A DNA stretch of 64,000 nucleotides from the NCBI RefSeq assembly GCF_000725345.1, contig NZ_CP008852.1, positions 2,509,693-2,573,692 of the forward strand. Direction: 5' to 3'. The position numbers and the translations under genes are program-made. Within the stretch, counting starts at the first letter, position 1. Each line of letters begins with the position of its first letter. Source of the DNA: Pelosinus sp. UFO1 (GTDB taxonomy: Bacteria > Bacillota > Negativicutes > DSM-13327). Below are positions 590 through 57,787 of the stretch, piece by piece. The notes under the pieces were generated by a model, which did no database searches, was not told the origin of the DNA, and was given only the letters and a program-made list of their open reading frames with translations.

Positions 590-1384
590 TTATAGTTTAA
601 AGCCGCCGTATTCGGCTAATGCCTGCTGACAACTACAATCTAAGGTAGTATCGATTAAAAGGATTGTATTCATAAGTAACTTCTTAAGCTTTTCTGTATT
701 TTCATTCATAATTTCAATAACTTCACCGTAAGTTATGGGCTTTGGCGAAATACCTGCCGCATAATTCGTAACCATAGCAATCGTAGAATAACACATTTCG
801 GCCTCACGAGCCAATATAACTTCCGGTACATTTGTCATACCTACCAAGTGCCCCCCCATTTGAGCATACATGGCAATCTCAGCTGGAGTCTCGAAACGAG
901 GTCCTTCTGTACAAACATAAGTCCCAGAAGAATGGATAACAATGCCGATCTTTTGCGAGACTGACAACAAGGTTTCCCGCAAAGTTAAACAATAGGGACT
1001 TGTTAAATCAACATGGACAACTCCTTTGTCGCCACCTTCATAAAAAGTACTCTTTCTAGTTTTAGTAAAATCAATAAACTGATCAATTAAAACGAAATCT
1101 CCCAACTTCATTGCAGTGTTTAATGAACCAACTGCAGCTGTAGCCAAAATTTTCTTTACTCCAATTTTTTTCATAGCCCAAATATTTGCTTGGTAATTAA
1201 TTAAGTGAGGTGCAATGGAATGCTTACTACCATGTCGTGGAATAAAAGCAATACTCCTCCCGGCAAAATCTCCAACCTTGTAAGAAACTAAACCATAAGG
1301 AGTTTTGATTTCATCTTGACGTACATTTTCCAAAATAGTAGGATCGTATACTCCTGTTCCACCAATAATTGCGATATTTATCAT
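590..1384 (-). CDS. MTA phosphorylase family enzyme, probable 6-oxopurine nucleoside phosphorylase
   Basis: 264 aa, a PNP/MTAP family 2 phosphorylase. Phosphate-binding features are GGTGVYD (8-14), RHG (50-52) and ATAAVGSL (81-88); MTNVPE (183-188) is the family motif. Classical methylthioadenosine phosphorylases have Asp residues (T-D-Y-D) that bind the 6-amino group. Here the segment is TNYAAG (206-211), with Asn207 and no second Asp, the pattern of family members that prefer 6-oxopurines such as hypoxanthine or guanine nucleosides. The gene lies just upstream of mtnA (13-nt gap), so a role in methylthio-nucleoside salvage, perhaps via methylthioinosine, is attractive but inferred. Substrate is less certain than family. 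Confidence 0.85.
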   Translation of the reverse strand: MINIAIIGGTGVYDPTILENVRQDEIKTPYGLVSYKVGDFAGRSIAFIPRHGSKHSIAPHLINYQANIWAMKKIGVKKILATAAVGSLNTAMKLGDFVLIDQFIDFTKTRKSTFYEGGDKGVVHVDLTSPYCLTLRETLLSVSQKIGIVIHSSGTYVCTEGPRFETPAEIAMYAQMGGHLVGMTNVPEVILAREAEMCYSTIAMVTNYAAGISPKPITYGEVIEIMNENTEKLKKLLMNTILLIDTTLDCSCQQALAEYGGFKL

Positions 1385-22374: not shown

Positions 22375-22428
22375 AGAACATTAGAAAAATGCAATAGCTA
22401 TTAAGCCTTATCAAAGACTTAATAATAA

Positions 22429-22556
22429 CCTTTTTCCATCCAGACTATACTGTCGGCTCCGGAATTCCACCGGATCAGCCATACGGCTCGCGGGCTAATC
22501 ACCGCCGGTAAGGAGTTAAAAGATTTCTCTTTTTCACCTTGCCCCAAAGGCTCCTT
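22429..22556 (-). promoter_or_regulatory. FMN riboswitch (RFN element)
   Basis: The minus strand carries the conserved RFN blocks in order: GGAGCCTTTGGGGCAAGGTG, CCGGCGGTGAT, AGCCCGCGA, GGATCCGGTG-like, and CCGACAGTATAGTCTGGATG. FMN binding should favour the downstream terminator and switch off riboflavin synthesis. Confidence 0.97.
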
Positions 22557-39255: not shown

Positions 39256-39275
39256 GGTGATGTTACTGTCACTCT

Positions 39276-39377
39276 CCCATCTTGCGATCTTTACCGCAGG
39301 AATTGGCACCGTTTTTGGATATTCCAAATGGTTGCCGCGGTTTCATTGGGCCATTCCCTCCACCATCTCTTGATGAG
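39276..39377 (-). promoter_or_regulatory. SAM-I (S-box) riboswitch aptamer
   Basis: Minus-strand consensus blocks appear in order: CTCATCAAGAGATGGTGGAG, GGGAATGGCCCAATGAAACC, CGGCAACC, GGTGCCAATTCCTGCGG and GATGGGAGAG. Helix P1 pairs CTCATC with GATGGG. Confidence 0.97.
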
Positions 39378-39402
39378 CCAATATATAATTCTGCCAAATC
39401 AA

Positions 39403-51674: not shown

Positions 51675-51770
51675 CTCCCTTTGTTTCTCAAAAACATTAT
51701 TATCTCTAAACTTATTGACCTTATTATATTTTATACATTCCCCAAATACTGTGATTTATATCATAAGAAA

Positions 51771-51863
51771 AGACTTGGCTTAGGCCAAGTCCTCAGACGC
51801 AGGCAGAAGCCTTAGTCGTTCTTACTTGGAATCAAGGAAGTGTTATACTTTCTGATTCCGTAA
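51771..51863 (-). ncRNA. Candidate structured RNA or repeat: three consecutive hairpins
   Basis: On the minus strand: hairpin A (51828-51859, outer stem GGAATCA / TGATTCC plus inner AAGT / ACTT), hairpin B (51796-51817, GAC+AGGC / GCCT+GTC) and hairpin C (51772-51791, perfect GACTTGGC / GCCAAGTC) ending in a T-rich tail. Bounded upstream by another terminator (51867-51889), it could be a roughly 95-nt RNA or a mobile intergenic repeat. No promoter is evident. Confidence 0.3.
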
Positions 51864-51889
51864 AAAAGACTTAGCTTATGCCAAGTCCT
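51862..51889 (-). terminator. Terminator-like hairpin, near-duplicate of the one at 51771-51793
   Basis: Stem GACTTGGC / GCTAAGTC with one G-U pair, then TTTTTT on the minus strand. It matches 21 of 23 bases of the hairpin at 51771-51793. With the stronger terminator at 51930-51957 it forms a tandem pair behind the ferredoxin gene. Confidence 0.7.
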
Positions 51890-51921
51890 AGTAAATTCAT
51901 TTATTTGTATACGGAAATAAG

Positions 51922-51957
51922 TAAAAAAAAGAAAAGCCCAGAAATCTGGGCTTTTCT
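51922..51957 (-). terminator. Intrinsic terminator of the ferredoxin gene
   Basis: An 11-bp stem AGAAAAGCCCA / TGGGCTTTTCT (51930-51940 with 51947-51957) is followed by eight T on the minus strand. It lies 10 nt past the stop. Confidence 0.95.
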
Positions 51958-51967
51958 TATATTACAC

Positions 51968-52132
51968 TTATTCTGGGCTGATTGCTCCTACTGGGCATGT
52001 TGCTGCACATGAACCACAGTCGATACACTTTTCATCAATAACATATTGTGCTTCGCCTTCAGAAATAGCTTCTACTGGACAAACAGCAGCACAAGCGCCA
52101 CATGAAATACATTCGCTACTAATTTTATACAT
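51968..52132 (-). CDS. 2[4Fe-4S] bacterial ferredoxin
   Basis: 54 aa electron carrier of the clostridial type. It has two canonical cluster motifs, CISCGACAAVCP (C-x2-C-x2-C-x3-CP) and CIDCGSCAATCP, related by internal symmetry. MYKISSE and the ending VGAISPE frame them. The acidic, small protein probably serves low-potential redox enzymes in an anaerobic metabolism. The Shine-Dalgarno is AGGAGG about 8 nt before ATG 52132, and the gene has its own terminator. Confidence 0.96.
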   Translation of the reverse strand: MYKISSECISCGACAAVCPVEAISEGEAQYVIDEKCIDCGSCAATCPVGAISPE

Positions 52133-52261
52133 GAAAATCACCTCCTATGTAGATAACTGTATACTATTATACTATAGACTAGCAATAAATCACATAACTA
52201 ATATTATTTTAATACGATATTTTTTTACATTATGCTTAATTTTTAGCAAACTAATCTCAAT

Positions 52262-57514: not shown

Positions 57515-57787
57515 AATAACACCTCCAAAAAAATAAAACCTCTTCATCCCTAAAGGGACGAGAGGTTGTTTCCCGTGATACCACCCTAATGACTGCTTAC
57601 ACAGCCACTCAAAAACGAAATAACGCTCGTCAAACGGCAAAACTTAATTAAGTTTCAGTTTGCAGTTCAGGAGTGATATTCACTATGATTGATTTATTAG
57701 GCTCACACTCTTCCTAACTCGCTGCAAAATCACATATCCCAGCTACTGTCTCCATCATTACTTGTATAACTATGTACATATATAACG
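57515..57787 (-). promoter_or_regulatory. Ile T-box riboswitch leader
   Basis: The minus strand carries the T-box sequence AGGGTGGTATCACGG (57573-57587) and a terminator at 57537-57567 (AACCTCT...AGAGGTT, T-rich tail). The stem I region upstream has a candidate AUC isoleucine specifier at 57675-57677 within GAATATCACT. Uncharged tRNA-Ile should favour antitermination and read-through into ileS. This accounts for the 352-base gene-free stretch with the promoter and terminator to its right. Confidence 0.93.

Follow-up and report, generated by a model that had tools for sequence, protein, structure and literature searches.

A dispersed 97-nt three-hairpin element behind intrinsic terminators in Pelosinus sp. 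UFO1, probably a non-autonomous relative of IS200/IS605 transposons

Overview

Three successive hairpins on the minus strand of the window, the whole 64,000-nt stretch of the Pelosinus sp. UFO1 genome analysed here, together make up a single copy of a 97-nt element that is dispersed in the genome (51764-51860, 5'-CGGAATC...TCTTTTCTTA-3'). We consider it likely that the element is a non-autonomous transposon of the IS200/IS605 (Y1-HUH) kind, resembling the palindrome-associated transposable elements (PATEs), which inserts behind intrinsic terminators and is mobilised in trans as single-stranded DNA. The strongest support for this reading is that genuine IS200-type elements occupy the same kind of place. 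The landing rule of those elements is a more general result than the element in the window: it would provide a concrete rule for the landing of one of the most widespread groups of small transposons, just behind genes where least damage is done, and it would explain a class of three-hairpin intergenic repeats that resemble small RNAs.

The window copy and its landing site

The limits of the window copy are exact (51764-51860, minus strand); they were derived from empty sites in a congener, G008, and the covariance model matches the complete copy with 118.1 bits. Hairpin A (51828-51859, minus strand, GGAATCA..TGATTCC) forms the left end and starts 1 nt inside the element. It is followed by the possible guide GTAAGAA (51819-51825, minus strand), by hairpin B (51796-51817, minus strand, GAC..GTC), which is the most variable part and is absent from some copies, for example L322, and by the right end (51764-51793, minus strand), in which the terminator-like hairpin C (GGACTTGGCCTAAGCCAAGTC, 51791-51772) leads into the tail TTTTCTTA, constant across copies. 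A re-reading of the sequence confirmed all coordinates that an earlier, sequence-only reading had given for the three hairpins, as well as its statement that C is identical at 21 of 23 bases to a second hairpin at 51889-51867. The stretch folds at -51.5 kcal/mol compared with -28.7 (sd 3.6) for dinucleotide shuffles (z = -6.4), the element has no coding capacity, and Rfam at its gathering threshold returned no family at the window element. The putative guide extends a stem in the predicted fold; it is complementary to the landing-site tail TTTTTAC with one G-T and is the exact complement of the right tail plus C (TTCTTAC). Guide and tail variants are paired in two subfamilies, the second having GTAAGGG in place of GTAAGAA and the tail TTTCTTTA, a pairing that may go back to a single event.

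The upstream gene encodes a ferredoxin of 57 aa (51968-52141, minus strand, from the ORF list, with two CxxCxxCxxxCP motifs in its translation). Its intrinsic terminator lies at about 51930-51957 (minus strand), and TTTTTTTTAC stands directly behind it. The landing site proper (51861-51889, minus strand) comprises the hairpin AGGACTTGGCATAAGCTAAGTC plus TTTTTTA, with the cut after the A. The orthologous site in G008 (L251) is empty and reads ...GGACTTGGCATAAGCTAAGTCTTTTTTATGATATAAATC, the cut being TTTTTTA^TGATA without target duplication; since this unoccupied site already has the same hairpin, the hairpin at 51867-51889 is the landing site and is older than the insertion. The proposal that the ends of a repeat had been duplicated therefore falls, C being the element's own right end. 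Judging from a weak element match at 51861-51964 (minus strand, 24.6 bits, rough E 0.0088), the landing hairpin probably formed the right end of an earlier copy that has since decayed; the left limit of that copy is uncertain because the match overlaps the ferredoxin terminator. Hairpin C thus resembles the second hairpin because the landing hairpin is itself of the C type, probably a remnant of this earlier copy. The order that fits the window is the ferredoxin terminator, T8AC, the decayed copy with the 51867-51889 hairpin and TTTTTTA, and the fresh copy from 51860 to 51764. Elsewhere in the window, an FMN riboswitch, a SAM riboswitch and a T-box leader are found on the minus strand at 22424-22555, 39274-39379 and 57551-57767, respectively.

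Distribution in the genome and the family

The genome, a single contig of 5.1 Mb, holds 135 copies by covariance model. The counts from this model cover ten genomes, all of one family: five carry 135, 122, 106, 73 and 31 copies and five others 2-5 each. A search of the genome with the whole stretch produced at least 43 long matches, and the 24-nt unit of the right-end hairpin has 123 matches at no more than two mismatches; its reversed control pattern has 0, and shuffles of the window gave 0 chance matches. From 491 kb assembled around the matches (about a tenth of the genome) 105 full copies were extracted and read, 93 of which have the same length, and at L002 the element stands in tandem with a 97-nt period. 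The dispersed-repeat alternative offered by the sequence-only reading was right, since the unit recurs in about 135 genome copies, and the search for further copies and relatives that it had suggested decisively found both a second copy and conservation. Its thought that the region might be the scar of a lost gene is not supported, as the same unit is found at about 135 sites and lies inside an ORF in one copy out of 105. In an exact pattern scan of genome contigs the only hits came from metagenome-assembled genomes, in ten stretches of which two bear the name Sporomusaceae; the plasmids and phages searched yielded no match.

Several further observations concern the distribution and state of the copies. 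Among the left ends listed, one (that of the window copy) falls between 1.707 and 2.823 Mb, the 1.1 Mb around the likely replication terminus, compared with about 100 in the rest of the genome; by the covariance model at least one further copy, at 1749146, falls in this sparse region. At G000 4698272 and 136872 and at G008 L242 only the two ends survive, in remnants of 22-50 nt that apparently result from a deletion between short repeats, a process described for PATEs too. Four congeners (L158-L161) share an old, altered copy without the usual left end, flanked in L160 by a gene for a six-cysteine SCIFF-like peptide and a radical-SAM maturase-like gene. Locus L155 contains two tandem M-box magnesium riboswitches (669-840 and 981-1158, minus strand).

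Empty sites, limits and longer relatives

Orthologous sites in G008 were available for most loci compared; many are occupied in both genomes and several are empty in G008, namely L251 (the window locus), L253, L249, L250 and L243, all without target duplication. The site at L253 reads TTTTTTTG^ATG when empty and TTTTTTTG-CGGAATC...CTTA-ATG when occupied. The element is therefore a 97-nt unit running from C to A, with unique limits and no target duplication. Its two ends, CGGAATCAG and TTTTCTTA, do not form an inverted repeat. A miniature inverted-repeat element (MITE) of a DDE transposon was rejected, terminal inverted repeats and target duplication both being absent.

A second, longer family of about 125-230 nt has the same ends and uses the same sites, with CGGAATCAGAAAGTATAAG at the left and a hairpin with TTTTTCTTA at the right, and at four loci (L225, L226, L241 and L247) the 97-nt family is present in one genome and the longer family in the other. 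The interior palindromes of the second family are unrelated (AACCACAAAGACACAA... in this genus, TGTCATTGCGACGAGG... in G001), and both families can form rows in which each copy stands behind the right end of the preceding one. Longer same-ended elements (L271-L300 and L321-L340) include palindromes with TGTCATTGCGA...GCAATGACA and AACCACAGAG...CTCTGTGGTT repeats. No autonomous element between the shared ends was recognised among the left-end loci read.

Conservation of the hairpins

In 33 diverse copies from several genomes, both-side changes occur at 11 of 29 pairs (6 of 12 in hairpin A, 2 of 7 in B and 3 of 10 in C), a figure reached by 3 of 500 shuffles. Cells with both-side changes number 30, against 14.0 in shuffles (0/500 reaching the observed value) and 5-15 in slid controls, and 89.5% of the cells are pairing, compared with 29-52% in slid controls. 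These compensatory changes support all three hairpins; the conserved structure fits RNA and single-stranded DNA alike.

The same structure could instead mark a family of genes for small RNAs, or of modules in 3' UTRs, maintained because they serve the host, for instance in RNA stability or as back-up terminators, and a small structured RNA with its own terminator had indeed been proposed from the letters of the window. Compensatory changes, a terminator-like right end and a position behind genes would all agree with it. However, Rfam holds no match, a hairpin-ended single-strand transposon would be expected to conserve its structure equally, the sites differ between close relatives and the empty ones are clean, the element lies beyond terminators that are already strong, and some relatives have only 2-5 copies, all of which makes a retained host function extremely improbable. 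If copies do affect the host, for example as back-up terminators, the effect is probably incidental.

Where the element lands

The insertion point follows a T-run plus purine and precedes A or T, in a single orientation. All 105 full copies have a T at position -4; 75 are preceded by TTAC and 23 by TTGC (TTRC in 98 of 105), where the C is the first base of the element. Left flanks of 45 nt fold at -8 kcal/mol or better in 86% of copies versus 18% of 471 control T5RC sites, and about 14% of copies stand without a strong hairpin in the left flank. The flank hairpins vary from copy to copy and are therefore terminators of the neighbouring genes. The upstream gene is on the same strand for 77 of 98 copies, its stop codon lying at a median distance of 68 nt, and the downstream gene is convergent for 69 of 96. 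Co-orientation with GC skew (85 of 105 copies) is confounded with gene orientation, which alone could produce the bias.

Group IIC introns likewise select intrinsic terminators for insertion (PMC4424553), and the element's RNA would end at its own terminator, so that retromobility by such an intron or its protein deserves mention. The distribution speaks against it: the group II model RF00029 has no match in the UFO1 genome, G002 or G007 and one in G008, but 5-11 in the copy-poor G003-G006, and the element itself is without an Rfam match. We regard retromobility as very unlikely.

Candidate transposases

The element inserts in a fixed orientation and without target duplication, and its ends are asymmetric and bear hairpins; these traits point to the IS200/IS605 family of HUH transposases, for which a lack of inverted repeats and of duplication, hairpins at the ends and trans mobilisation of elements that consist of ends only are established rules (PMC7290912, PMC3119063); on this comparison membership of the IS200/IS605 kind is probable. 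At the Y1 loci fetched from ten genomes, five of them incomplete, no transposase gene flanked by the element's ends was found. The copy-rich genomes of UFO1, G008 and G002 lack IS200-type TnpA, which is present in the copy-poor G003 and G005 and also in G001; the number of element copies does not track the presence of TnpA. The IS200-type copies read in G001, G003 and G005 sit behind terminators. Either the mover has been lost or a different HUH protein is responsible.

The complete UFO1 genome encodes a single Y1 protein, a RAYT-like (REP-associated tyrosine transposase) protein of 253 aa that scores 74.7 bits against the RAYT cut-off of 80. The element might thus be a REP-like repeat belonging to this resident gene: there is no other Y1 protein to turn to in the genome, a counterpart 96% identical exists in the copy-rich G008, and RAYTs have been proposed to act on palindromic repeats (PMC2817692). 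Against this, the ends of the gene (GGGGACGGTTCT...) differ from those of the element, as the flanks at L061 and L195 illustrate, and the protein falls just under the RAYT cut-off. The Y1 loci fetched from the copy-rich G001 and G007 include none with more than 50% identity to it except a 79-aa fragment in G007, the copy-rich G002 has no Y1 match, and the nearest element copy is more than 1 kb from the gene, in G008 only. Ownership by the RAYT-like gene is accordingly judged unlikely. RAYT-like Y1 genes (L061, L195, L208, L196 and others) have complementary ends of their own, such as GGGACGGTTCT...AGAACCGTCCC, which are lineage-specific.

Genuine IS200-type elements behind terminators

IS200-type elements were found in 75 of 200 genomes of Negativicutes. 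The 40 copies read comprise those of six genomes, each with several, and two from the family; in 39 of them the element immediately follows a hairpin that folds at -12 kcal/mol or better, versus 21% of background windows. One of the 40 is preceded by the right end of another IS200 copy, and some few of the sites are alike. The threshold of -12 kcal/mol was used because background folding is strong in the genomes that carry IS200. The classic IS200 of Salmonella and E. coli (66-69% protein identity) behaves similarly. E. coli IS200C lies behind a terminator and T-run at 9 of 9 distinct chromosomal sites, against 26% of background windows, including those behind carB, cutC, plaP, pqqU, aroA, pgm and potE; the pgm and potE sites are one bidirectional terminator entered from two sides, and the number of independent sites is therefore slightly below nine. 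The E. coli records were taken at even, non-random steps along their ranking, L482, a copy that lacks a left end, was excluded, and two repeats of one site were merged. Three of three plasmid copies (two of E. coli IS200C and one from Salmonella) are also behind terminators. A published survey reports that IS200 is over-represented between convergent genes (PMC9208149), an excess that fits landing at terminators. A terminator (GAACCCCATGGG...) that is apparently the same in two related species has a different IS200-type element behind it in each (L437 and L451) and is possibly a hot spot.

It is about as likely as not that terminators folded as single-stranded DNA are general landing pads for IS200-type elements, through the mimicry of the right end by hairpin and T-run, and that the modular cassettes of the Sporomusaceae exploit this rule, carrying unrelated palindromes and creating a new pad with each copy. 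The literature on terminator-targeting insertion sequences yielded only group IIC introns and REP-targeting elements; the landing rule was not found stated in the literature searched, which was largely open-access, and it may already be known.

Several families with different cargo, common only in the first ~20 nt and in a right end of hairpin and T-run yet found at the same sites in different genomes, could also be short cassettes moved between terminator-like hairpins by a recombinase of a new kind, and the Y1 loci fetched from the ten genomes included no matching transposase. Since IS200-type elements make the same target choice without a new enzyme, this explanation seems decidedly unlikely.

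According to the favoured IS200/IS605-like reading, a Y1 transposase would recognise single-stranded DNA in which a T-run and purine come after a hairpin, the target being a terminator folded as DNA. The same recognition would operate at the element's right end, hairpin C plus TTTTCTTA, where the transposase would cut and join the ends. As the right end mimics the target, each copy would end in a fresh landing site, giving rise to tandem and nested copies.

Comparison with known systems

Group IIC introns (PMC4424553) resemble the element in their insertion at intrinsic terminators and differ in consisting of a ribozyme plus a reverse transcriptase; no such intron was detected in the UFO1 genome. 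The RAYT/REP systems (PMC2817692) likewise involve extragenic palindromes in high copy number, for which a Y1 protein acting in trans is the presumed mover. The PATEs of Haloquadratum (PMC3119063) also lack inverted terminal repeats and target duplication, have palindromes near both ends, are too short for a transposase, reach high copy number and suffer core deletions between repeats; unlike them, the element is bacterial, lands strictly behind intrinsic terminators and has no autonomous element with matching ends among those found. Two features depart from the IS200/IS605 scheme: in IS608 the guide is 5' of the hairpin (PMC7290912), whereas here the complementary stretch follows hairpin A on its 3' side, and the C of TTRC is part of the element; both points were counted against this reading. 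With the IS200 group (IS200C of E. coli, IS200F of Salmonella and the IS200-type elements of Negativicutes) the element shares landing behind a terminator hairpin and T-run, a left-end hairpin near the boundary and a right end made of a hairpin plus a short AT-rich tail, although the members of that group have tnpA (~700 nt) and end sequences unlike its own. The target in question would be based on structure, any hairpin with a T-run, in contrast to the short fixed sequence described for IS608-type elements.
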